From contig NZ_JACXXN010000032.1 in assembly GCF_014904695.1 (NCBI RefSeq), positions 1-64,000 of the forward strand: a stretch of DNA of 64,000 nt, in the 5' to 3' direction. Of this stretch, positions 7,360 through 61,677 are shown piece by piece. The translations under genes and the position numbers were made by a program. The notes under the pieces were generated by a model that ran no database searches, had not been told where the DNA came from, and saw only the letters and a program-made list of their open reading frames with translations. Source of the stretch: Nostoc sp. MG11. GTDB lineage: Bacteria; Cyanobacteriota; Cyanobacteriia; Cyanobacteriales; Nostocaceae. Numbering within the stretch: the stretch's first letter is position 1; every line of letters begins with the position of its first letter.

Positions 7360-7628
7360 TAGGGAGCGGAGGGGCAGTGCTTCGACTGCGCGGCAGTTGA
7401 GCGTAGTCGAAACTCAGCAACCGGGGCGGAGGGGCATGATCTGCGATAAAAAAGACTCATTCACGAGTATCAAAGACTTATTCACGAGTATCAAAGACTC
7501 ATTCACGAATATCAAAAACTCATTCACGAGTATCAAAGACTCATTCACGAGTATCAAAGACTCATTCACGAGTATCAAAGACTCGTTGTTGCATTCTAAA
7601 ATATATCTCCTTCTTCACTCTGGCAAAA
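7360..7628 (+). repeat. Composite G-rich/21-bp-repeat element, copy 1
   Basis: A G-rich block (GGGAGCGGAGGGGCAG, 7363-7378) is interrupted by another short interspersed repeat (CTTCGACTGCGCGGCAGTTG and following) and resumes at about 7423. Six perfect-length 21-bp units (7460-7585, consensus TTCACGAGTATCAAAGACTCA) follow, then the tail TTGTTGCATTCTAAAATATA. Each unit contains CGAGT...ACTCG-like arms and could form a small hairpin. Copies 2 and 3 lie at 22594-22870 and 47229-47394. The 21-bp period keeps a frame open (FTSIKDS heptads), but I see no ribosome site and treat it as a repeat, not a gene. Confidence 0.75.
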
Positions 7629-19367: not shown

Positions 19368-20204
19368 CTAAATAGAAGCGAAGCAAGAAGAGAGGGATGT
19401 ATAGATGTAGGAAGATGTGGGAGAACTTGTGCAAGTTTACATCGAAAGAGGTAAGAGCATTTGAAGTACCAGCTAGCATGAAAATATCAGACTGAAAAGG
19501 TTGCAGTTTTGATAAAAATTTCTTGGTCGAAGAGAGTACTACAAATTCATCTTCGTTGTCGCTCAAATGATACCTGGTACAACTCCAGTTCTGCATCCCA
19601 TTTCCTCTAACACCCCATTATATCTCTTGCATAAATGCTTAAAATGGCATTCACGACAACTCAACTTAAACTTACAGTTATTGCATCTAACTCAAAGCAT
19701 AGATCCCCGACTTATAAAATAAGTCGGGGATCTTATTTATTACGAATGATTTGGTATAACTAGCACATTCATTAGTAGAACTGCTTTTTGATTATTTAAC
19801 TATTTACTTATTAAGATTTCATAGCAATGATATGGTTTAAACAGTTTATATAATCATCCTATTTTCCCCACCTTTCCTACTTTTATTACCTTGAATTTTT
19901 ATCCATAGTTTGTAACTTTTAAAAATACCAATCTTTAAAAATTTTACTCCTAACTTTACTATCTCTTTATATAAATCTCTTTCAAATAAACGTACTATTT
20001 AAACATAGTGAAATTAAAAAATTAACCAATAATTAAATATTGTTAGATGCATTAGTTTAGTGTTTTCTAACGACAAGGCTAATAAAAAGTTGGCAGATAC
20101 TAGATATTTTAAGTATCTTATGACTTGTGGTATTAGCAATTACTGGTTAAGTAAAAGAAAGATTTCACTACCCAAAAATCATTTTGTACAAGGAAGGAAT
20201 TTTT
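19368..20204. other. Region between precursors 2 and 3
   Basis: These 837 bp hold the decayed copy of the 34-codon segment (about 19430-19600), a strong terminator (19702-19741) and an inverted copy of the GTAGGAAA motif (CCTATTTTCCCCACCTTTCCTACTTTTA, split at 19858-19885). The rest, to 20180, is very AT-rich and should hold the precursor 3 promoter. Confidence 0.4.
19702..19741 (+). terminator. Rho-independent terminator after precursor 2
   Basis: A perfect 14-bp stem (GATCCCCGACTTAT and complement, 19702-19715 / 19719-19732) with an AAA loop is followed by TTATTTATT. Confidence 0.8.
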
Positions 20205-20465
20205 ATGTCAGTTGCAACACTTGAGCAAGAAACACTCGTAGTTATGACAGAGTTAGCTGATGAAGAAATCAGTGGAATTGTAGGAGGAAGACGCGGAGAT
20301 TTCAAAGCCAAAAAAATAGATATCGACATCGACGTTAAGTCTAAGGTTTCTGGCGGTAAATATTCAAGAGTAGCTAATGGCACTTCTATTGCCGTAGCAT
20401 TCAATGGAGATGCTAAAGCCAATGTAGATATCGATCAAAGCAACGATCGCGCATACTTTAAATAA
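20205..20465 (+). CDS. Double-glycine leader peptide precursor 3
   Basis: An 86-residue precursor starting at the ATG at 20205, preceded by an AAGGAAGG ribosome site (a longer frame to 20184 has none). The 28-residue leader ends in TELADEEISGIVGG. The 58-residue core begins RRGDFKAKKIDIDIDVKSK and shows an alternating Asp/Lys/hydrophobic pattern, with no Cys or Trp. It resembles a beta-strand protein more than a pore-forming peptide. The leader differs from those of precursors 1 and 2 except for the Gly-Gly region, and its promoter is not shared, so it is a separate family member feeding the same exporter. Confidence 0.75.
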   Translation: MSVATLEQETLVVMTELADEEISGIVGGRRGDFKAKKIDIDIDVKSKVSGGKYSRVANGTSIAVAFNGDAKANVDIDQSNDRAYFK

Positions 20466-21153: not shown

Positions 21154-22593
21154 GTGGTTAGACAAACAAACAATCTATTCCGGGAAGAAGCTTTAGAGCG
21201 TGCTTCTTCTCCTGAAGAACTAGATCAAATTATGCAGGTAGTCAGCGCGAAAAAGTGGCTACCTTTAGTTGCTGCTGGTTCGTTGGTGGCAGCTGGGCTA
21301 ACTTGGAGTGTTCTAGGTCAAATTCCAATTACGGTAACGAGTCAAGGAATAATAGTCTATCCCAGTCTGCTGGTGTCGTTCCAGTCACCGATCGCAGGTA
21401 AGTTGCGAACAGTAAACGTCCGTGTTGGCGACTTTGTCAGGAGAGGAGATGTGCTGGCGACGTTAGACCAAGGCGAACTTTTAAAGCAGCTACAGCTAGT
21501 ACGCGGCCAACTAGCAGAACTACAAGCACAGGATCGCAATAGCAGATCAGTACAACTACAGCGGCAGGATGCAGACAAACAGGCAATGCAACAACAACGC
21601 CAAACTTTGCAGCAAAGCCTTGAGGCAGTAAAGAAGCTAACGCCGATTTTAAAGGAAAAAGGGCTGGACTCGATTAAACGCGATCGCGATAACCAAACAC
21701 AACGCTTGCAAGCCCTTCAAAAACTGCTACCTACCATCAAAAAGAGATTGGACAACCGCCAGCAGCTGTTGCAGCAAGGAGCAATTGCTGGTGATACACT
21801 CCTACAGGCAGAGCAAGACTACTTAAATTCTGTGACACAAGTTAATGAAACAGAATCACAGCTTAAGCAACTGGATGTCAAAGAAGCAGAAGCACAACAA
21901 CAATACCTAGAGAACCTGAACTCAATCAAAAATTTGCAAGCGCAGTTGAAGGAACTAGATAGCAAACAAGCTACTTTAGCGCAACAAGACTTAGAAGCAG
22001 CAAATAATCGGAAAAAAGAAATTCAGGAAGTCCAGCGAAATATTACTCAATTGGCACTGCAATTGATGAATAGCACCCAGATAAAGAGCAATTTCAACGG
22101 ACGGATTATAGAAATCTCTGCAACTCCAGGACAGATTGTTGTCCAGGGAACCCCGTTAGGATCTATCTCCGCACAAAAGCGATCAACTCAACCGATGAGC
22201 GTGGCATTTTTTCCCGTTGGTGATGGCAAAAAAATTCAACCGGGAATGAAATTACAAATCACGCCTTCCACAGTACAAAGAGAACGCTTTGGTGGCATTG
22301 TTGGTTTAGTCACCGATGTTTCAGCTTTTCCCGTGACTAAAGAAGGTGCATTAAATGTCGTGGGCAATGCCGAAGTCGTGCAAAGTTTAATGTCCCAAGG
22401 GCCGCAAATCCAAGTTACTGCCCGAATGCAACCAGACACTTCCAACTTCAGCGGCTACAAATGGTCTTCTTCCCAAGGGCCACAACTGAAAGTAACTTCT
22501 GGAACCACTACCCAGGTACAAGTCACCGTGGAAGAACGCGCCCCGATTACTTTCGTCATCCCGCTCTTAAGATCCTGGAGTGGGATTTATTAG
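21154..22593 (+). CDS. NHLM-type HlyD membrane fusion protein
   Basis: A 479-residue periplasmic adaptor of the NHLM bacteriocin export systems. The start is GTG at 21154. The N-terminus NLFREEALERASSPEELDQIM is the family signature, followed by one membrane helix (about 35-55), a biotinyl-lipoyl-like segment (VSFQSPIAGKL...VGDFVRRGDVLATLD), and a long Gln-rich coiled coil (about 110-310). The second lipoyl half (GRIIEISATPGQIVVQGTPL) and a beta-barrel domain end in RSWSGIY. It links the inner-membrane ABC exporter encoded next to an outer-membrane channel, which is not in this window. Confidence 0.88.
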   Translation: MVRQTNNLFREEALERASSPEELDQIMQVVSAKKWLPLVAAGSLVAAGLTWSVLGQIPITVTSQGIIVYPSLLVSFQSPIAGKLRTVNVRVGDFVRRGDVLATLDQGELLKQLQLVRGQLAELQAQDRNSRSVQLQRQDADKQAMQQQRQTLQQSLEAVKKLTPILKEKGLDSIKRDRDNQTQRLQALQKLLPTIKKRLDNRQQLLQQGAIAGDTLLQAEQDYLNSVTQVNETESQLKQLDVKEAEAQQQYLENLNSIKNLQAQLKELDSKQATLAQQDLEAANNRKKEIQEVQRNITQLALQLMNSTQIKSNFNGRIIEISATPGQIVVQGTPLGSISAQKRSTQPMSVAFFPVGDGKKIQPGMKLQITPSTVQRERFGGIVGLVTDVSAFPVTKEGALNVVGNAEVVQSLMSQGPQIQVTARMQPDTSNFSGYKWSSSQGPQLKVTSGTTTQVQVTVEERAPITFVIPLLRSWSGIY

Positions 22594-22870
22594 GGGCAGG
22601 GAGGGGAGGGGCAGGGGGGCGGAGGAGCAGGGGGGGCAGGGGGAGCAGGGGAGGCGAGTGTAAAAGACTCGTCCACGAGTATCCAAGGCTTGTTCACGAG
22701 TATCAAAGGCTTGCTCACGAGTATCAAAGACTCGTCCACGAGTATCAAAGGTTCATTAACGGAGTTCGTAGCTCCATTCACGAGTATCAAAAGCTCATTG
22801 TTGCATTGCAAAATATATTTCCTTTGCTCCCCCTGCCTCCCCTGCCTCCCCTGCCTCCCCCTGCCCCTCT
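22594..22870 (+). repeat. Composite G-rich/21-bp-repeat element, copy 2
   Basis: Right after the HlyD stop, a G-rich block (22593-22655, GGGGCAGGGAGGGGAGGGGC and similar) is followed by exactly six 21-bp units (22671-22796, consensus GTTCACGAGTATCAAAGGCT, one diverged as ATTAACGGAGTTCGTAGCTC), then ATTGTTGCATTGC, and a C-rich block (22829-22865, repeats of CCCCTGCCTC). G-rich and C-rich ends are complementary, so the whole element can fold into one large hairpin. The G block also fits a G-quadruplex pattern. Confidence 0.8.
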
Positions 22871-22907
22871 ATCTTCACGATGATCTCACTCTCTCACCTT
22901 GCTCTCT

Positions 22908-25900
22908 ATGATGTTATGGCGGAATTTACAAAGCCGACTAAGGCGTAAAAGTAAGCGGTGTCATACTCCTACTCTGCTACAAATGGAGGCAGTAGAATGT
23001 GGTGCTGCTGCTTTGGGAATTATTCTAAGTTACTACGGTCGCATTGTGCCGCTGACGGAACTTCGGCAAGCGTGTGGCGTATCGCGGGATGGGGTGAGCG
23101 CTTTAAATATCATTAAAGCTGCAAGAAACTATGGGCTAACTGCTAAGAGCTTTAAGACAAACTTAGCTGGCTTGTGGGAGCTAAAATCTCCCTACATCGT
23201 ATTTTGGAACTTTAACCATTTCCTAGTCGTAGAGGGATTGGGCAAACGGCAACTTTTTCTCAATGATCCCGCTACCGGACGGCGCACTGTTTCCCTAGAT
23301 GAATTCAGCGGCGCTTACACGGGTGTCGTGCTAGCTCTAGAACCTGGGCCAAACTTTCAGCGAGGGGGACGTAAACCCAGCACTATCCGAGCTTTGTGGT
23401 CACGGCTGCAAGGCTCTGTTGGCGCAGTGCTTTACTGCGTGCTGGCAGGATTTTTATTAGTAATTCCCGAATTGGCGATACCTGTATTCTCCCAGGTGTT
23501 TGTAGACAATATATTAATTCAGAGAAAAGATGAGTGGTTGCGTCCGCTAATATTGGGGATGATTTTCACAGCCGGACTAAATGGATTTTTGACGCTGTTA
23601 CAGTTGCAGTTTTTGCGTCAGCTGAAAATCAAGTTGTCCGTAAGCATGAAGAGTAATTTTCTCTGGCACATTTTACGCTTACCCATGAGTTTTTATGATC
23701 AGCGGTTTGCTGGGGAGATCAGTAGCCGTATGCAACTCAACGACAGTATAGCTGATATACTTTCGGGTCAGTTAGCTACCACGGTGATTGCCGCAGCGTC
23801 AGTATTTCTTTATGTAATAGTGATGCTGCAATATGATGTGGTACTAACCTTAATTGCGATCGCCTTTGTGGCTGTGAACCTGGCTGCCTTGCAGTGGGTG
23901 AGAGGGCGGCGCACAGACGCCAATATTAAACTCATGCAAGAACACGGAAAAGTCAGCGGCGTAGAGATTTCTGGTCTTCAGAGTATAGAGACAATAAAGG
24001 CATCAGGGTTAGAGTCAGATTTCTTTTCCCGGTGGGCGGGTTACTATGCCAAAGCCATCAACACGCAGCAGGAGTTGCAGACAACAAACCAAGTACTAGG
24101 CATTTTACCAACCTTTTTATCAGCGATCGCCTCCATGCTCCTTTTAGCTATAGGCGGTTTGCGAGTGATAGATGGAGCTATGAGTATCGGGATGCTAGTA
24201 GCCTTTCAAGGCATGATGCAAATGTTTCTTGAACCGGTAAGTAATCTCGTCAACTTAGGTAGTGACCTCCAAGAGATGGAAGGTAATCTGACTCGCCTCG
24301 ATGATGTCTTGCGTAACCCCATTGATCGGCAGTTGGAGCGGGGAAGAGGTAGGGGAGCGCAGGGGCAGGGGAGGCAGGGGGAGCAGGGGGAGCAGGGGAG
24401 CAGAGAGGAAGTTGTAGTCAGTCTTTCCCCTTTGCCTCTTCGCCCCCCTTCCCATCTACCAAAACTACGGGGTTATATTGAATTACGCAATGTGACATTT
24501 GGCTATAGCCGAATTGCCCCGCCGCTGATTGAAAACTTTAATCTCTCGCTCAAGCCTGGGCAGCGAGTGGCTTTAGTAGGTGGAAGTGGTTCTGGGAAGT
24601 CTACCGTTGCCAAACTTTTGTGTGGGCTGTACGAACCTTGGCAAGGAGAAATCTGGTTCGACGGCAAACCCAGAGAGCAAATTTCTCGCCAGGTGCTAGC
24701 CAATTCTATATCTGCCGTCGAGCAAGAGATTTTGTTGTTTGCTGGCAGCGTCAGAGACAACTTGACACTTTGGGATACCACTATACCCGACAGTCATCTA
24801 GTCCGAGCTTGTCAAGACGCAGTAGTCCACGATGTTATCCTCTCTCTGCCAGGAGGCTACAATGCCGAACTCTTAGAGGATGCCACCAATTTGAGCGGTG
24901 GTCAACGGCAACGGCTGGAAATTGCTCGTGCTTTAGTGAATAATCCGATGATACTGATCATGGATGAAGCCACCAGCGCCCTTGATGCCGAGACAGAAAA
25001 GAACGTCACTCGGAATCTGCGCCTGCGCGGTTGCACTTGTATCATCGTGGCACATCGACTCTCAACCATCCGAGATTGTGACCAAATTATTGTTCTTGAT
25101 CGCGGCAAGATAGCCCAACGGGGAACCCATGAAGAACTACAGCAGGTTGAGGGGCCGTATTTACAATTAATTCGTAGCGAGGGCGATGGGGAGCAGGGGG
25201 GCACAGGGGCACAGGGGCAGGGGAGTGGAGGGGCAGGGGGGGCAGGGGAGGCAGGGGAAGAAAATACTTCTTTGTCTTCCTCATCCTCGTTAAATCTCTC
25301 AGGGCAACAGTATTGTTTTCAATGTAATGAGTCATTATTGCTAGATGACTTAGAGACAATTTGGGTAGTGAAATCTGGTGAATTGGCGCTATTTGCATTC
25401 AATGATCACATCCCAGAAGCAACTCGCCACTACTTATTTAGTAGTACAGCGGGACAAGCGATGTTTGCCACTGCACCAAATTTAGAGGGCAAGCAGCACC
25501 AGATTTTAGCGGTGGCGATCGAGGAGACAGAACTGATCAAAGTATCAAGAACAGACTTTGCTCAGTTTTTCGCTGATGCTAATACAGAGGCAGTGGCTTT
25601 AATCGAGGGTTGGATTTGTCAACTTGGTACAGGAGTTGGTGCTGGCACCACGAGGTCAACAGCATCAATATCACCTGAAGGAATCTGCTACTTTTCCTTA
25701 GTCAAAAACCAAATCTTCCAGCCGCATCACAACTATATATTATGGGTGCAAATCCTCAAAGGGCGTGCTAACTGGATGGGGTTTGCAGAACTGCCTTTAA
25801 CTCCTGTCTCTGGAATGTTGCCTATAAATGCAAATATATGGTTGCAAGCAGATGACACAGTTGAGTTGAAAAGCTCTAACAGCCTAGAGATTCAAGATAT

Positions 25901-28193
25901 AGATTCCTTGTTAGGCGGTTTGTCCCAATTACAAACCTATTTCCTCCACTACATTGCTCTGCTCCAACAGCGGGAGATGGATGCAGAATTACTCAGATTT
26001 CAAGCCAGGGAACATCTTGAACGCCAGGTGATGAAGGAGACATTGGCAGAACTGGCATCTGTATTGCCAGATCTAGGGTCAGCCAAGCCCAGTACTAGTT
26101 CCTCTCACCCAGATCAAGCCTTACTAATCGCTGCTGGTACTGTAGGTAAAGCTTTAGGAATCGAGATTCGTCCCCCAGCGGCGTCGGAAGATCTTAAACG
26201 AGTGCAAGATCCTGTAGAGGCCATCGCTCGTGCTTCGCGTATCCGAGTCCGGCGGATTAAGTTGCGGCACAACTGGTGGCAAAAGGATTGCGACCCGATG
26301 CTAGCATACATGCTTGAGGACAAGCTACCAGTGGCACTGTTACCAGTGTCTGATACTCGTTACGAAATCTATGCTCCTGGGAAACAGACCCGCATCCCTG
26401 TAGATGAACGCACAGCAGAGATGTTAGCTTCAACTGCCTACGTATTCTATCGACCTTTACCCAATAAACAGATCAAAAGTCTGGACTTACTTCGGTTTGC
26501 ACTCCAGGGACATTACAAAGAGCTGATTGTAGTTTTCTTGACGGGAATTATCTTTACCCTATTGGGAATGCTGTCGCCTCAAGCTACAGCTATCTTAATC
26601 GACAAAGCTATCCCAGATGCTAATCGGGGGTTGCTGAACCAAATTACTTTTGGTCTAATAGCTGCCGCTTTTGGCGGAATGCTGTTTCAACTAGCCCAAG
26701 CGCTTGCGATTATCAGGCTAGAAACTTTTACCGATTCCTCTATCCAAGCGGCAGTGTGGGATCGATTGTTAAATCTGAAGACTTCTTTTCTTCGCCAGTT
26801 CTCAGTTGGTGACTTGAATTCTAGAGTTACAGCGGTTACTCAAATTCACCAGAGACTGGGTAATACAGTGTTAAAAACAATTTTTTCTAGTTTGTTCTCG
26901 TTACTGAATCTGGGATTATTATTTTACTACAATGTTTCTTTAGCTTTGATAGCTTGTGTGGTGGCACTGGTAAATATTGCCGTCACTATCATCTCTGGTA
27001 TTCTTATTGTCCGTAAAGTTCGCCCTTTACTAGAGCTACAAGGACAAATTTTTGGCGTGATGGTGCAATTGATCAATGGAGTTGCCAAGCTCCGAGTTGC
27101 CAAAGCTGAAGCCCGCGCCTTTGCCTACTGGGGTAAACAGTATACACATCAACTGAAATTAATGCTAAGTACCCAAGGCATTGAAGACAGCCTTGCAGTA
27201 ATCAATCAAGTATTACCTATATTAACAACTGCCGCCCTCTTTTGGTTTGCTACTAGCTTAATTGGGCAATCCCAAACTTCTGGAGGAGGTGGTTTATCTA
27301 CTGGCACTTTCTTAGCGTTCAACGTTGCTTTTGGCACGTTTATTAACGGAGCTACTAGCTTAAGCAGCATAGTTGTGGAAGTTTTGCAAGTCTTACCCTT
27401 GTGGCAACGAGCTGAACCAATTTTACAAGCTGAACCAGAAATTAATTCTGCTCAGGCAGATCCAGGTAGGCTATCGGGCAGATTAGTTGTAGACCGTTTA
27501 ACTTTTCGCTATCGTGACGATGGCCCCTTGTCGTTGGATGATGTCAGTATCCATGCTGAGCCAGGAGAATTTATTGCCATTGTTGGGCCTTCTGGCAGCG
27601 GTAAATCAACTTTATTAAGGTTACTTTTGGGGTTTGAATTCCCCAAATCTGGGACGATTTACTACGACGGACAAAACTTAGCTTCTTTGGATGTCCATGC
27701 TGTGCGCCGCCAATTGGGTGTAGTACTGCAAAATAGTCGCTTGATGTCAGCCTCTATTTTCGAGAATATTTCCAGCAGTGCGCTGATTACCATGAACGAA
27801 GCTTGGGAAGCAGCCCAGATGGCAGGTTTTGCGGATGATATTGCGGCGATGCCAATGCAGATGCATACAATCGTCAGTGAAGGAGGTAGCAATCTTTCTG
27901 GTGGACAACGACAGCGGCTGTTAATTACCAGGGCATTGGTGTTGAAACCCCGGATTTTGCTGCTCGATGAGGCGACTAGCGCTTTAGATAATAGAACGCA
28001 GGCAATTGTCAGTCAAAGTTTAGCGCAGTTAAAGGTGACTAGGGTAGCGATCGCTCATCGTCTCAGTACCATCCACAACGCTGACCGAATTTACGTACTC
28101 GAAGGTGGCAAAGTAGTGCAGCAGGGTAGTTTCTCTGAGCTAGCAAATCAACCAGGGCTGTTTGCACAACTCATGATGCGACAGATGCTTTAG
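22908..28193 (+). CDS. Fused NHLM-type dual ABC exporter (C39 peptidase-ABC1 + ABC2)
   Basis: A 1,761-residue protein from the ATG at 22908 (a TTG nine bases upstream is possible). The first half (to about 760) is a C39 peptidase-ABC exporter. The peptidase has Cys in QMEAVECGAAALG (near residue 31), His in WNFNHFLVVEG and Asp in LNDPATG. Then come six membrane helices and an ATPase with GGSGSGKST, NLSGGQRQRLEIARAL and LIMDEATSALD. The second half (from about 800) is the NHLM ABC2 partner, with its N-terminal region of about 350 residues (FQCNESLLLDDLETIWVV), membrane domain and ATPase (GPSGSGKST, NLSGGQRQRL, LLLDEATSALD). These are normally two genes. Here they are joined by an in-frame G-rich repeat at 25185-25262, and another such repeat splits the first ATPase from its membrane domain (24340-24420). 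It should cleave the Gly-Gly leaders and export the peptides. Confidence 0.88.
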   Translation: MMLWRNLQSRLRRKSKRCHTPTLLQMEAVECGAAALGIILSYYGRIVPLTELRQACGVSRDGVSALNIIKAARNYGLTAKSFKTNLAGLWELKSPYIVFWNFNHFLVVEGLGKRQLFLNDPATGRRTVSLDEFSGAYTGVVLALEPGPNFQRGGRKPSTIRALWSRLQGSVGAVLYCVLAGFLLVIPELAIPVFSQVFVDNILIQRKDEWLRPLILGMIFTAGLNGFLTLLQLQFLRQLKIKLSVSMKSNFLWHILRLPMSFYDQRFAGEISSRMQLNDSIADILSGQLATTVIAAASVFLYVIVMLQYDVVLTLIAIAFVAVNLAALQWVRGRRTDANIKLMQEHGKVSGVEISGLQSIETIKASGLESDFFSRWAGYYAKAINTQQELQTTNQVLGILPTFLSAIASMLLLAIGGLRVIDGAMSIGMLVAFQGMMQMFLEPVSNLVNLGSDLQEMEGNLTRLDDVLRNPIDRQLERGRGRGAQGQGRQGEQGEQGSREEVVVSLSPLPLRPPSHLPKLRGYIELRNVTFGYSRIAPPLIENFNLSLKPGQRVALVGGSGSGKSTVAKLLCGLYEPWQGEIWFDGKPREQISRQVLANSISAVEQEILLFAGSVRDNLTLWDTTIPDSHLVRACQDAVVHDVILSLPGGYNAELLEDATNLSGGQRQRLEIARALVNNPMILIMDEATSALDAETEKNVTRNLRLRGCTCIIVAHRLSTIRDCDQIIVLDRGKIAQRGTHEELQQVEGPYLQLIRSEGDGEQGGTGAQGQGSGGAGGAGEAGEENTSLSSSSSLNLSGQQYCFQCNESLLLDDLETIWVVKSGELALFAFNDHIPEATRHYLFSSTAGQAMFATAPNLEGKQHQILAVAIEETELIKVSRTDFAQFFADANTEAVALIEGWICQLGTGVGAGTTRSTASISPEGICYFSLVKNQIFQPHHNYILWVQILKGRANWMGFAELPLTPVSGMLPINANIWLQADDTVELKSSNSLEIQDIDSLLGGLSQLQTYFLHYIALLQQREMDAELLRFQAREHLERQVMKETLAELASVLPDLGSAKPSTSSSHPDQALLIAAGTVGKALGIEIRPPAASEDLKRVQDPVEAIARASRIRVRRIKLRHNWWQKDCDPMLAYMLEDKLPVALLPVSDTRYEIYAPGKQTRIPVDERTAEMLASTAYVFYRPLPNKQIKSLDLLRFALQGHYKELIVVFLTGIIFTLLGMLSPQATAILIDKAIPDANRGLLNQITFGLIAAAFGGMLFQLAQALAIIRLETFTDSSIQAAVWDRLLNLKTSFLRQFSVGDLNSRVTAVTQIHQRLGNTVLKTIFSSLFSLLNLGLLFYYNVSLALIACVVALVNIAVTIISGILIVRKVRPLLELQGQIFGVMVQLINGVAKLRVAKAEARAFAYWGKQYTHQLKLMLSTQGIEDSLAVINQVLPILTTAALFWFATSLIGQSQTSGGGGLSTGTFLAFNVAFGTFINGATSLSSIVVEVLQVLPLWQRAEPILQAEPEINSAQADPGRLSGRLVVDRLTFRYRDDGPLSLDDVSIHAEPGEFIAIVGPSGSGKSTLLRLLLGFEFPKSGTIYYDGQNLASLDVHAVRRQLGVVLQNSRLMSASIFENISSSALITMNEAWEAAQMAGFADDIAAMPMQMHTIVSEGGSNLSGGQRQRLLITRALVLKPRILLLDEATSALDNRTQAIVSQSLAQLKVTRVAIAHRLSTIHNADRIYVLEGGKVVQQGSFSELANQPGLFAQLMMRQML
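24337..24447 (+). repeat. In-frame G-rich insertion between ABC1 membrane and ATPase domains
   Basis: Repeats of GGGGCAGGGG/GGGGGAGCAG (24337-24405) encode a Gly/Gln/Glu linker (RGRGRGAQGQGRQGEQGEQG). A pyrimidine-rich part (24420-24447) encodes Ser/Pro/Leu. The sequence is of the same type as the G-rich ends of the composite elements. Family ABC1 proteins pass here from the membrane domain to the ATPase through a short linker. Confidence 0.7.
25185..25262 (+). repeat. In-frame G-rich repeat at ABC1/ABC2 fusion point
   Basis: A 78-bp run of GGGGCAGGGG/GGAGGGGCAG units encodes GDGEQGGTGAQGQGSGGAGG and a little more. It lies exactly where the stop codon of ABC1 and the start codon of ABC2 would be expected. 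A Ser-rich stretch (25270-25297) follows before ABC2 homology begins. Confidence 0.7.
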
Positions 28194-28372: not shown

Positions 28373-29413
28373 ATGATAAAATTTCGCTATATCTGTTTAA
28401 CTGTTGCAACTGCGGCAATAATTAGCTTAAGTGCTTGTAACAGTACGCCTACAGCAGAAAATCCATCTGCACCAGCCGCTAATTCCAACCCCCAGGCTAC
28501 AGAGGCAGTAAGTCAGAACAATCACAGCGGTCATGGTGGCAAAGCGAAAGTTAACATTAATACTGCTATCTTGTCAGAGTTGGATAAGTTTGAAGCCAAG
28601 CTAGGTATCCCAGCTTTATCGAACAAAATTCAGGCGAATCGTCCCTACGCTAATTCAGAAGATTTAGTTACAAAAAAAGTCATTACTCAAGAGCAATTCG
28701 ACCAAATAAAAGACCAGGTTACTATTCAGGAAGTAGTACTTACGGGTGAAGCAAAAGATGTTGACTACATGACTAAATTGGGATTAATGAAAGGGCATCT
28801 TTTTGTAGCACAAGAATTGCTAGATCAGAATCAGCCAAAACAAGCAGAACCTCATATCGGGCATCCAGTTGAGGAGATTTATGTTGATGTAGAAGATCAA
28901 CTAAGCGATCGCAAAGTCAAAGAATTTAAGACAACTTTGGTAAGTTTACAAGATTTAGTAAAATCCAAGCCCAAGGATGCCAAAGTAAAAACTGATTTTA
29001 CCTCTTCGATGCAAGCAGTTGACGGAGCGATCGCAGCTTTACCAGCAGATCAACGCTCGAAACCGGGATTTGTGTTACAGACAATTAATGGGTTGTTAGA
29101 TGCAGCCAACTCAGAATATGGTGCAGCGATCGCAGATGGCAAAGTGACCGCACCAATTGAATATCAAGATTCGCGTGGCTTTGTTCTCTACGCTGATGAA
29201 TTATACAAAGGGATTTCTAGCCAAGTAGCTCAACAAAATCCCGAAGCACACAAAGCGATCGAGGTCAGTATGGTTGAACTAATAAAAGTTTGGCCCTCTG
29301 CTATTCCACCAGCTAAAGCAGTCAAGACTCCTAATGATGTTACCAAGCTAGTGAAAACCATTGAGCAAAACTCTCAAAAAGTAATCGACTCCACTACCCA
29401 AGCTAAACAATAG
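28373..29413 (+). CDS. Lipoprotein with HHH domain, probable periplasmic iron-binding protein
   Basis: A 346-residue lipoprotein: signal peptide with lipobox SLSAC (Cys near residue 22), then a low-complexity linker containing NNHSGHGG. A ComEA-like helix-hairpin-helix region (VNINTAILSELDKFEAKLGI, about 60-120) and a helical domain with EPHIGHPVEEIYVDVEDQL (about 161-180) follow. The His/Glu cluster resembles the metal-binding helix of EfeO-type imelysin-like proteins. Together with the ferritin-like and FTR1 genes just downstream, it is probably the periplasmic iron-delivery component. The HHH part is unusual here, because it normally binds DNA. The AGGAG site and ATG start are clear. Confidence 0.7.
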   Translation: MIKFRYICLTVATAAIISLSACNSTPTAENPSAPAANSNPQATEAVSQNNHSGHGGKAKVNINTAILSELDKFEAKLGIPALSNKIQANRPYANSEDLVTKKVITQEQFDQIKDQVTIQEVVLTGEAKDVDYMTKLGLMKGHLFVAQELLDQNQPKQAEPHIGHPVEEIYVDVEDQLSDRKVKEFKTTLVSLQDLVKSKPKDAKVKTDFTSSMQAVDGAIAALPADQRSKPGFVLQTINGLLDAANSEYGAAIADGKVTAPIEYQDSRGFVLYADELYKGISSQVAQQNPEAHKAIEVSMVELIKVWPSAIPPAKAVKTPNDVTKLVKTIEQNSQKVIDSTTQAKQ

Positions 29414-29591
29414 CAGCCCAACTTAATGGGAAGCTCAGAATAAGAAGTTTAAAATGAGTGATAAGTGAGGAAATAGTTAGGAGTTAAAAGTGAGAATAAC
29501 GCCTATATTCTTAACACCTAGGCGGAGTATAACACCTAACTCTTAACTTAATTGCTCATGACGCTCCATTCGTAAATTGAATTAACAACTA

Positions 29592-30026
29592 ATGCAAGAG
29601 CTTGACCAGAAAAAAACCATTGACCTGCTGAACGCGATTATGGAATTTGAACTAGCGGGAGTAGTGCGCTATACACATTATTCTCTGATGGTGACTGGTC
29701 CCAACCGCATTCCAATTGTAGGTTTTTTTAAAGCACAGGCGAGTGAGTCTTTACTTCATGCCCAACAAGTAGGAGAAATTCTTACAGGTTTAGATGGGCA
29801 TCCTTCACTGAAAATCGCCCAAATGGAAGAGACTTATAAGCACACAGTCAAGGATATCTTGGCAGAAAGCTTATCTCATGAAAAGAAGGCATTGGATCTG
29901 TATAAAAACCTGCTTGAAACTGTCACCAACGCCAGTATTTATCTGGAAGAATTCGCGCGGGGCATGATTGGACAAGAAGAGATGCATAATCTCGAATTGA
30001 AAAAGATGTTACGCGATTTTAGCTAA
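29592..30026 (+). CDS. Ferritin-like/bacterioferritin-like protein
   Basis: A 144-residue four-helix protein of the bacterioferritin type. Expected metal ligands are Glu20 in EFELAG, a Glu52/His56 pair in ASESLLHAQQ, Glu92-region residues in AESLSHEKKAL, and a second ExxH in IGQEEMHNLEL near 128-131. The first pair is spaced ExxxH rather than the usual ExxH, which may alter the di-iron site. No heme-ligating Met at the usual position near 52 is evident. It lies between the lipoprotein and FTR1 genes and should store or pass on iron. Confidence 0.75.
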   Translation: MQELDQKKTIDLLNAIMEFELAGVVRYTHYSLMVTGPNRIPIVGFFKAQASESLLHAQQVGEILTGLDGHPSLKIAQMEETYKHTVKDILAESLSHEKKALDLYKNLLETVTNASIYLEEFARGMIGQEEMHNLELKKMLRDFS

Positions 30027-30086
30027 TAGCTAATAGTCACTAGTCCCTAGTCATTAATTATTGGCTAGGGACTAATGACGACTAAG

Positions 30087-30188
30087 GACAAAGCGAAAAG
30101 TTTGAGCCGAGGTTTCCGACGCTCGTTCCTCTCTACGAGACGCTGCGCTATCGGATCAAAACTTTTCAAGAGAAGACAAAGGACAAAA
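30087..30188. repeat. Interspersed hairpin repeat, copy A
   Basis: Outer arms GAAAAGTTTGAGCCGA (about 30093) and TCGGATCAAAACTTTTC (about 30152) enclose a variable loop containing CTCTACGAGACGCTGCGC. The flanks GACAAAGCG on the left and GGACAAAAGA on the right recur in the copy at 36729-36838. Confidence 0.6.
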
Positions 30189-30189
30189 G

Positions 30190-31158
30190 ATGAATTTTAG
30201 TACAGCCTTACCTACTTTTGTGATTACACTCCGGGAAGGAGTAGAAGCTGCCCTTGTTGTTGGCATTGTGCTAGCTTTGCTGAAAAAAGCCAAACAATCC
30301 CGACTCAATTCTTGGGTATATGCTGGTGTCGGCGTTGGCATTATTGTTAGTGCATTTATCGGTGTGCTATTTGGTTGGGTAACTCAAGCACTAGGCAAAG
30401 CTTATCCGCAATACACGGGAGTTATTGAGCCAGCACTGGAAGGTATATTTAGTGTGTTGGCGATTATTATGCTCAGCTGGATGCTAATCTGGATGACCAA
30501 ACAAGCCAGATTCATGAAAGCTAGTGTTGAAGGATCTGTTACCAACACCTTGGCACAAAACGCTAACGCTGGATGGGGTATTTTTAGTTTAATTTTTGTT
30601 GCCGTTTTACGTGAAGGTTTTGAAACTGTTCTGTTTATTGCTGGTAGTTTTCAGCAAGGATTAATGCCTACTATTGGCGCTCTTAGCGGTCTTGTAGTAG
30701 CAGTAGCAATAGGTGTGCTTTTATTTAAATGGGGTATTAAAATTAATATTCGCTTGTTTTTCCAAGCAATGGGCGTTTTATTAGTGTTGATTGTCGCTGG
30801 TTTAGTAGTGACAGCGCTGCAACGATTTGATGAAGCTGTTGCTAGCGTTGCTCTCAGCAGTCGCGCTTCAGAAGACCTTTGTTTTTACTACGAACGCTTT
30901 ACCAGAATTCACTCTTGCATTCTAGGCCCAATGGTTTGGAATACTTCCAAAATTTTGCCTGACGAACAGTTTCCTGGCATTATTTTCAAAGCTTTGTTTG
31001 GCTATAGGGAGAATCTCTATATTGTGCAAGCAGTGGGATATGTAGTATTTTTATTCACCGTCGGCGGACTTTATTTCCGCAGCCTCATTCCTGCTTCTCC
31101 CAAAGATAGAAAAAATATTTCTGTTGCTAGAAAAACGATTGGTTCTGCAAAAGATTAA
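30190..31158 (+). CDS. FTR1-family iron permease
   Basis: A 322-residue membrane protein of the FTR1/EfeU family with seven predicted helices. Both iron-binding REXXE motifs are present: REGVEAALVVG (residue about 13) and REGFETVLFIAG (about 139). In the family these Glu residues pass oxidised or elemental iron through the membrane. A Cys-containing loop (EDLCFYYERFTRIHSCILG, about 225-245) precedes the last helices. The gene follows the lipoprotein and ferritin-like genes on the same strand, separated from the latter by an interspersed hairpin, so an iron-uptake role is well supported. Confidence 0.88.
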   Translation: MNFSTALPTFVITLREGVEAALVVGIVLALLKKAKQSRLNSWVYAGVGVGIIVSAFIGVLFGWVTQALGKAYPQYTGVIEPALEGIFSVLAIIMLSWMLIWMTKQARFMKASVEGSVTNTLAQNANAGWGIFSLIFVAVLREGFETVLFIAGSFQQGLMPTIGALSGLVVAVAIGVLLFKWGIKINIRLFFQAMGVLLVLIVAGLVVTALQRFDEAVASVALSSRASEDLCFYYERFTRIHSCILGPMVWNTSKILPDEQFPGIIFKALFGYRENLYIVQAVGYVVFLFTVGGLYFRSLIPASPKDRKNISVARKTIGSAKD

Positions 31159-60543: not shown

Positions 60544-61677
60544 ATGGCTATGCGAGACGCAGACAAGGATCGTCGCAAAAATCGCCCTGTCAATAATCCT
60601 CACCCACCTGCGAAAGAACCACTTTCTTATCATGAGCTTAAACAGTTATGGACAAATGCTCGTGCCAAAGCGCTTCAATGGGAACAATGTGCAAAAGAAA
60701 ATCAGGATGCAGCATCTCAACTGACTCAAGTTCAGCAAGATATCCAAACTTACCAAGTTGAGGTTAATGAGTTAAGAGAACGTGCGGCACACAATTACCA
60801 GATATATCTTAATGAACAAAAAAATTATCAGCAGGCTTTATGCCTCTACAACGGAGAAAAAACGAGAGCAACTGAATTAGTTGCCCAACGTGATGAATGG
60901 CAACAACGTGCAAAAGAAAATCAAGATGCAGTATCTCAACTGACTCAAATTCAGCAAGATATCCAAACTTACAAAGTTAAGGTTAACGAGTTAGAAAAAC
61001 GTGCAGCACACAATTATTTAATCTATGTTGATGAAAAAGAAAATTATCAGCAGGCTCTAAATCGTTACAATGAAGCAAAAGCGAAAGCAACTGAATTAAT
61101 TGCTCAACGTGATGAATGGCAACAACGTGCAAAAGAAAATCATGAAGCTGCATCCCAACTAACTCAAATTCAGCAAAATGTGCAAATTTATCAAGTTGAG
61201 GTCAATGAGTTAAGAGAACGTGCAGTACACAATTACCAAATATATCTTGATGAGCAAAAAAATTATCAGCAGGCTCTACATCGTTACAATAAAGAAAAAG
61301 CCAGAGCGGCTGAATTACTTGCCCAATATGAAGAAATAAAGTCTGAGCGAGATAACTATTTAACTCTATATAATGAGGCACAAACACAACTTAGATTTGA
61401 GCGACGTTCCAAGGCTGGTATTAAAGGATGGGAAACTCGTCGTAAAGCTGAGAACGAAAGGCTAAAACGGGAAATTGCTGAGATGGTTGTTATACTGCGC
61501 GAATCCCTTGCAAGTAAAGATGAAGCAATAAATAACCTCTACGTTGTAGCAGAGCGTATGGATCGAATTCAATTCCTGGTGGATTCAGTGGAAGAAGAAA
61601 CAACAGGTAATCCTGTAGGTCTGGTACAAAAGTTTAAGCGCATCTGGCTTGCTATTAAAGAGATACTTTCAGAGTAA
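60544..61677 (+). CDS. Coiled-coil protein with three 73-residue repeats
   Basis: A 377-residue, highly charged protein. After a polar N-terminus, three tandem repeats of 73 residues each begin at Trp: WEQCAKENQDAASQLTQ, WQQRAKENQDAVSQLTQ and WQQRAKENHEAASQLTQ. Each contains VNELRERAAHNYQIYLNEQK and NYQQAL. All are coiled-coil forming. A distinct C-terminus (GIKGWETRRKAENERLKREI, then a helical end) follows. No membrane segment or signal is seen. It precedes a second helical gene by 12 bp. Possibly a filament or scaffold protein; function unknown. Confidence 0.7.
   Translation: MAMRDADKDRRKNRPVNNPHPPAKEPLSYHELKQLWTNARAKALQWEQCAKENQDAASQLTQVQQDIQTYQVEVNELRERAAHNYQIYLNEQKNYQQALCLYNGEKTRATELVAQRDEWQQRAKENQDAVSQLTQIQQDIQTYKVKVNELEKRAAHNYLIYVDEKENYQQALNRYNEAKAKATELIAQRDEWQQRAKENHEAASQLTQIQQNVQIYQVEVNELRERAVHNYQIYLDEQKNYQQALHRYNKEKARAAELLAQYEEIKSERDNYLTLYNEAQTQLRFERRSKAGIKGWETRRKAENERLKREIAEMVVILRESLASKDEAINNLYVVAERMDRIQFLVDSVEEETTGNPVGLVQKFKRIWLAIKEILSE
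60679..61335 (+). repeat. Three 219-bp in-gene tandem repeats
   Basis: Units start at TGG at 60679, 60898 and 61117, an exact 219-bp period without indels. The close DNA similarity indicates recent duplication or ongoing homogenisation. Confidence 0.85.

Follow-up and report, generated by a model that had tools for sequence, protein, structure and literature searches.

Predicted single-chain NHLM-type exporters of Nostocaceae and the turnover of repeats in their interdomain linker

Introduction

How do two exporter subunits of the ATP-binding cassette (ABC) type come to lie on one polypeptide chain, and did the repeat that encodes the join bring them together? This question is raised by a gene of Nostoc sp. 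MG11 located within positions 1 to 64,000 of contig NZ_JACXXN010000032.1 (assembly GCF_014904695.1); this whole stretch of 64,000 nucleotides is called the window below. The gene encodes a C39 peptidase-ABC1 half and an ABC2 half of an NHLM-type exporter, a system described as a three-gene transport cluster (Haft, Basu, Mitchell 2010, PMC2887384). Comparison of the reading frames and trees of related loci suggests that (i) the product is probably a single-chain, peptidase-containing exporter, (ii) its halves were probably fused once in an ancestor of a Nostocaceae clade and another time elsewhere, and (iii) the join probably acts as a tether within which repeats turn over.

The fused reading frame

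The initial annotation, made from the letters and their open frames, proposed a single frame of 1,761 residues with complete ATPase motifs in both halves and a C39 peptidase in ABC1, and all of this was borne out by full-length matches to both NHLM models and by motif and Pfam checks. The frame is open from position 22884, with possible starts at TTG (22899) and ATG (22908). The product matches TIGR03796 (NHLM ABC1) at residues 19-756 (1468.7 bits against a cut-off of 853.3, model positions 1-710 of 710) and TIGR03797 (NHLM ABC2) at residues 1069-1760 (1355.9 bits against 709.4, model positions 1-686 of 686). Both halves retain complete Walker A, signature, Walker B, and H-loop motifs. The only Pfam C39 stretch of the protein (PF03412, residues 21-148) belongs to ABC1, where the Q..C and H motifs of the peptidase are present; the mixed domain found at the C39 position of ABC2 has no Pfam C39 match.

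In the AlphaFold model of the protein from residue 757 onward, an unstructured linker (model residues 1-38, predicted local distance difference test (pLDDT) below 50) precedes two beta-rich domains and a mixed domain, after which come long helices and the ATPase. The beta-rich domains are presumably of the CAP_ED type, since a CAP_ED domain is part of the published description of the ABC2-type half (Wang, Fewer, Sivonen 2011, PMC3140520). The top Foldseek matches for the ABC2 model are HlyB and PCAT1. In a comparison with the PDB, eukaryotic ABCB1 and the yeast a-factor exporter matched best by summed score.

The linker is built of a G-rich array (approximately 25182-25270), with GAAGAAAATACTTC after this G-rich half, and then of a C/T-rich half (approximately 25271-25300). 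Two unfused paralogs of the same genome, C157 and C160, have a stop codon, a spacer, and an ABC2 start at the linker position, and thus the repeat occupies the place of these three elements, as had been supposed for the G-rich repeat at the join. The ABC1 halves of the two paralogs end in ..LIRSEGEALQEA and ..LICTEGEALQEG, each directly before the stop, and C160 carries a short G-rich stretch directly after it. A second repeat-coded insert, at the permease-ATPase junction within ABC1 (Table 1), is variable in relatives, and similar inserts were found in the unfused C160 and in G006b.

The assembly is a draft of 238 contigs with G homopolymers of up to 7, which would favor a sequencing or assembly artefact in the G-rich stretch. 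Such an artefact is barely credible, since the fusion is shared by relatives: in 17 further members of the clade described below the halves are likewise joined, through different linkers, and some of these loci come from assemblies of fewer than 10 contigs (G153, G026, and G214).

Distribution and phylogeny of the fusion

In the family survey, an ABC2 match at E 1e-150 or better was obtained in 138 of 217 genomes. DNA was read for 40 loci among the matches listed in the family, for 26 of 44 loci of a named collection, and for 3 loci from a search of the order. The ABC2 tree includes 61 of 72 loci, the other 11 being duplicates of genomes already present. The ABC1, ABC2, and concatenated trees include 54 of 84 loci; the 30 omitted loci comprise 12 duplicates or the like (including that of Nostoc sp. 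NMS4), loci that lack a half or are too short, and some near-identical rows (including G143).

The window falls into a Nostocaceae clade of 20 rows that has a support of 100 in the tree of 61 ABC2 rows, and again a support of 100 for its 18 rows kept in the 54-locus trees. Eighteen of the 20 rows are fused and two, G007 and G117, are not. Besides the window, 17 loci of the clade are in one frame, and a fusion unique to the window was thereby rejected. The initial reading, a single-chain exporter as a rare case of a repeat making a new architecture, is supported in part: one frame does join subunits of a family described as three genes (PMC2887384), but the case is not isolated, given these relatives and the group VII fusions in print since 2011, and the proposed origin from the repeat is less well supported (see below). 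Named fused members are Nostoc sp. NMS9, JL34, and NMS4, Brasilonema sp. UFV-L1 and CT11, B. angustatum, and Amazonocrinis nigriterrae CENA67. The distribution is patchy, since only 1 of 5 genomes of the window's own genus carries a fused gene. A shorter fused form, type-2 (G135b, G121, and G143; loci L066, L067, and L068), is without the greater part of the ABC2 N-terminal domains, which it has lost; both fused types are present in G135.

Ratios of nonsynonymous to synonymous substitution rates (dN/dS) range from 0.08 to 0.31 in both halves (9 pairs, 18 estimates). Both halves look to be under purifying selection, which appears unrelaxed in the two unfused members: dN/dS is 0.13-0.15 for G007 and its relative G006, and 0.08-0.09, as estimated from few changes, for G116 and G117.

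The search of the order covered 386 genomes and then 61 genomes of another family, 21 of which matched at 1e-180. Ten loci of that family were read, five fused and five separate. The fused proteins (G362, G495, G530, G489, and G518) show 41-53% identity to the window halves and form one branch apart from the Nostocaceae clade in the ABC1, ABC2, and joint trees, with a support of 100 each time. A single clade of all fused rows was rejected by the approximately unbiased (AU) test (p 7e-5, for a grouping named after the trees were seen). Two candidate histories were discarded on these grounds: one origin for all fused rows, by the AU test, and confinement of the fusion to the family of the Nostocaceae clade, by the five fused proteins of the other family. 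ABC1 and ABC2 are separate on DNA reading in C157, G077, G439, G472, G526, and G533. Three of the five linkers of the second fused clade contain other repeats, as judged by eye (AGTCAGG-type units, GAAGGAAG-type units, and palindromes such as GGACGTTGCATGCAACGTCC); those of G362 and G518 are ordinary linkers without clear repeats.

Linker turnover and frame keeping

The linker of the Nostocaceae clade is hypervariable, with tandem and palindromic repeats that change among relatives, and its frame is mostly kept. Its length ranges from 96 to 252 nt across the 20 rows, and parsimony requires at least 15 changes of length and 2 changes of frame. In G116 and G117, the linker arrays consist of different unit types and were replaced wholesale between near-identical flanks: the 5' flank is 97.3% identical (2,000 columns with 10 mismatches and a single 45-nt gap) and the 3' flank 99.5%. 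The NMS4 locus has a different long inverted repeat where its sister G153 has its array. Seven of the 20 linkers were folded against dinucleotide shuffles. Four gave z-scores compatible with a hairpin, of -4.12 (G153), -4.13 (G006), -4.45 (G116), and -2.86 (G126); the G214 linker is a weak palindrome (z -1.74, with 10 of 200 shuffles as good), and the linker of G135b folds no better than shuffles (z +1.67).

Keeping the frame over 15 length changes would be needless if the gene yielded two working proteins, either by cleavage of the chain in the linker or by an additional start of ABC2 from an internal codon. An exposed linker, as its predicted lack of structure implies, would suit cleavage, and 14 of the 18 fused rows have an in-frame ATG, GTG, or TTG within the linker (TTG in the window). 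These codons occur at no one conserved place, however, and are absent from G135b, G121, G143, and G126, and the ABC2 start methionine of unfused relatives is gone. We consider two working proteins unlikely, and favor a single chain that would work uncut.

Did the repeat make the fusion?

The initial annotation held that insertion or expansion of a repeat had removed the ABC1 stop. This gains no support from the phylogeny, in which the fusion appears ancestral to the Nostocaceae clade, or from G214 and three type-2 members, which are fused with linkers that lack any run of four or more G. Clear repeats are missing from the linkers of 4 of the 18 fused Nostocaceae rows and from those of 2 of the 5 fused proteins of the other family.

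A broader version of the same idea is that stop, spacer, and start were removed when a G-rich palindromic repeat was inserted or expanded at the end of ABC1, or when two of its copies recombined across the spacer, and that the repeat was later lost or replaced in some lineages. The core GAAAATACTTC is exact in 3 of the 20 linkers (window, G135, and G126) and is found with at most one mismatch in 7 and at most two in 8. The core-bearing rows comprise the window lineage and several lines of a large sister group, and thus the core is fairly old in the clade. Among 41 unfused pairs, counted after skipping those with far or opposed halves, spacers with two or more G-runs occur in 15; outside the clade, leaving aside G007 and G117, the count is 14 of 39, including C160 of the same genome. 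Together with the weak palindrome of G214, these observations make a repeat-mediated origin possible. It is nevertheless doubtful, as 12 of the 20 linkers show at least three mismatches to the core and no recognisable copy of it, G214 and the three type-2 members stand on one side of the first split of the concatenated tree (support 93 for the other side), and G362 and G518 of the second clade have ordinary linkers. Either the repeat was present at the start and then decayed in the group of G214 and type-2, or it arrived later.

The core repeat elsewhere in Nostocaceae

Across 208 genomes of the family, the exact core GGGGAAGAAAATACTTC has 15 sites, spread over 14 genomes, and the reversed control has none. 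Five of the 15 sites lie in long frames in the sense direction (four gene kinds), 4 are antisense in long frames, and 6 are neither. The same reading frame (..GEENTS..) is used in the two fused exporters, a histidine kinase with a DICT domain, an ATPase of the MalK type, and a type III pantothenate kinase. The antisense copies belong, in two genomes each, to a methyltransferase gene and to one further gene. The long-frame loci of unrelated genes that bear the core are L143, L146, L147, L136, L139, L138, and L145. Relatives of the pantothenate kinase (among 24 of 25 loci listed) and of the sugar ATPase (among 18 of 20 loci listed) have inserts at this position whose length and content vary; several of the kinase relatives lack the ENTS motif.

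Genomic neighborhood

The features of the locus are collected in Table 1. A HlyD match lies upstream of the exporter in all 20 loci of the clade and is partial in two among the matches listed. Three short open reading frames (ORFs) 5' of the HlyD gene, with double-glycine leaders picked by eye and by a regular expression, encode candidate cargo peptides; leaders similar to that of the third candidate (MSVATLEQ..) were also found 5' of other fused loci. The contig of the exporter has no match to the NHLP (TIGR03793) or Nif11 (TIGR03798) precursor models; other contigs of the genome have one TIGR03793 match and three TIGR03798 matches, two of the latter over the cut-off.

Table 1. Features of the fused exporter and its surroundings (window coordinates; a slash in a leader follows the double glycine)
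Feature	Position	Strand	Basis or remark
Candidate cargo, double-glycine leader (..EELEGVVGG/F..), 63 aa	18297..18488	+	family matches below cut-off only
Candidate cargo, double-glycine leader (..GELKGIVGG/V..), 93 aa	19086..19367	+	no family match
Candidate cargo, double-glycine leader (MSVATLEQ..EEISGIVGG/R..)	20184..20465	+	family matches below cut-off only
NHLM HlyD-type membrane fusion protein	21154..22593	+	TIGR03794, 396.9 bits vs cut-off 156.2
HlyD-ABC1 spacer: G-rich array, 21-bp repeats, C-rich array	22592..22865	+	
Fused NHLM exporter: C39 peptidase-ABC1, linker, ABC2	22908..28193	+	one open frame, 1,761 aa
ABC1 half: C39 peptidase (residues 21-148), permease, ATPase	22908..25181	+	TIGR03796, residues 19-756
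Second repeat-coded insert, G-rich then C-rich, permease-ATPase junction of ABC1	24340..24460	+	
Interdomain linker, 144 nt / 48 aa, between ..LIRSE (ABC1) and NESLLLDD.. (ABC2)	25182..25325	+	predicted unstructured
G-rich tandem array of the linker	25188..25257	+	tandem repeat detection
Core GGGGAAGAAAATACTTC	25254..25270	+	present as well in another member of the clade and, in other Nostocaceae, in unrelated genes
ABC2 half: two beta-rich N-terminal domains, mixed domain, permease, ATPase	25326..28190	+	TIGR03797, residues 1069-1760

Tandem units of 21 bp (CGAGTATCAAAG.. type) are closely alike at 7451-7584 and at 22655-22751, and three copies of a 219-bp unit (60677-61326) lie within a 377-aa ORF (60544-61677). 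The genes 3' of the exporter (28373-31158) encode a helix-hairpin-helix protein, a ferritin-like protein, and an FTR1 iron permease. As for a plasmid origin, positions 18-36 kb of the window gave no megablast match in 72,556 plasmid records, a set that possibly does not hold the records of this genome.

Interpretation

In the pathway that we propose, ABC1 would cleave the double-glycine leader of a cargo peptide, ABC1 and ABC2 would pair within one chain to form a pump with two permeases and two ATPases, and the cargo would be handed on to HlyD, the product of the gene immediately 5' of the exporter. One fusion event would lie in the ancestor of the Nostocaceae clade and a second, independent one in another family. 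The join would be a flexible cytoplasmic tether, selected to stay open and little constrained in sequence and length, and this loose constraint would account for the turnover of the linker: short tandem and palindromic repeats may invade, expand, and replace one another there, and likewise at the permease-ATPase junction of ABC1.

Several observations weigh against this reconstruction. Frame keeping supports the tether at P 3e-5 if each length change keeps the frame with a chance of 1/3, but this null disregards that several repeat units are of 9 nt and preserve the frame by themselves. The window linker folds no better than its own shuffles (z -0.54), so that the palindrome claim rests on relatives. 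The AlphaFold model is weak overall (mean pLDDT 64.4, predicted template modelling score 0.36). Double-glycine ORFs lie near 10 of the 20 clade loci as found by one regular expression, which detected none near the other 10. The deepest sub-branch of the Nostocaceae clade varies between trees: G214 and type-2 branch at the first split of the concatenated tree, and G006/G007 are outermost in the ABC1 tree instead. In the fused homolog of Nostoc sp. NMS4 (L132), the C39 cysteine region and the greater part of the ABC2 permease are missing, and this homolog may be decaying or misassembled. Finally, ABC1 and ABC2 are in different frames in G007 and G117, with the break inside the linker repeat.

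These two breaks bear on a further explanation, namely a contingency switch in which changes of repeat units or G-runs shift the frame and alternate a one-chain exporter with a broken or two-part one. Each of the 2 out-of-frame rows is sister to a fused one (G007 to G006, G117 to G116) and shows unrelaxed selection, long G-runs are present, and the linker can be replaced within a very short divergence. However, frame-preserving changes exceed the expectation of the simple null, and sequencing errors in G-runs could explain both breaks. A switch therefore seems improbable to us. A tree that holds the fused Nostocaceae rows together without G007 and G117 was rejected (AU p 4e-45), and thus the fused state is likely the older one, and the breaks are secondary or are G-run errors. 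A more far-reaching proposal, that coding palindromic repeats of Nostocaceae are a mutable linker source that joined the exporter subunits and now serves as a frame-shifting hinge switching pump states, we hold to be of similarly low probability.

Under the preferred reading of a single chain with a freely evolving tether, these loci form a natural series of 23 single-chain bacterial peptide exporters derived from two apparently independent fusions. The tethers of the Nostocaceae clade, 32 to 84 residues long and very different in sequence, offer a ready test of how far a two-part exporter tolerates joining. The in-frame repeat turnover suggests that repeats usually deemed noncoding are a running supply of linkers in these genomes.

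Comparison with known systems

With the known NHLM exporter the locus shares TIGR03794, TIGR03796, and TIGR03797, all over their cut-offs in the window; it differs in that ABC1 and ABC2 are on one chain and that the contig is without an NHLP or Nif11 match. The fold and domain order of the window halves resemble those of PCAT1, ComA, and HlyB, which are dimers of separate chains; a layout with both halves on one chain is that of eukaryotic ABCB1 and of the a-factor exporter of yeast.

Two kinds of repeats are comparable to those of the linker. Rickettsia palindromic elements and intragenic REPs are described as short, in frame in unrelated genes, and perhaps forming linkers or loops (PMC3733652). 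The in-frame core copies inside unrelated Nostocaceae genes are similar to the Rickettsia elements, whereas G-rich and C-rich tandem arms around a GAAAATACTTC-like core distinguish the repeats described here. The STRR hairpins of filamentous cyanobacteria are short tandem units able to form hairpins between genes (PMC2670836); the window units are likewise short and tandem but lie inside a reading frame. The open-licence literature searched yielded no paper that treats repeats in the linker of such exporters, which is weak evidence of novelty.

The closest precedent is the group VII bacteriocin clusters, in which a C39-ABC and a peptidase-less ABC are directly fused, a state reported to derive from group V by recent domain fusion (PMC3140520); thus, the fused architecture has been known since 2011. 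Three members are given there (Cyanothece PCC 7425, N. punctiforme PCC 73102, and Trichodesmium IMS101), and the main text of that paper contains no word beginning with "repeat" or "linker". A later account, in its passage on these clusters, repeats the group VII fusion and gives none in Subsection V (PMC4558948). The second fused clade may be of the kind that Wang et al. named from Trichodesmium. As far as our searches of the open-licence literature show, there is no earlier description of the two origins, of the hypervariable linker encoded by repeats, or of the frame breaks. The window shares with group VII the fusion of C39-ABC with peptidase-less ABC and the presence of a HlyD gene in the cluster, and the set of loci compared here differs from it in what appear to be at least two origins of the fusion and in a hypervariable repeat linker in most of the Nostocaceae clade.
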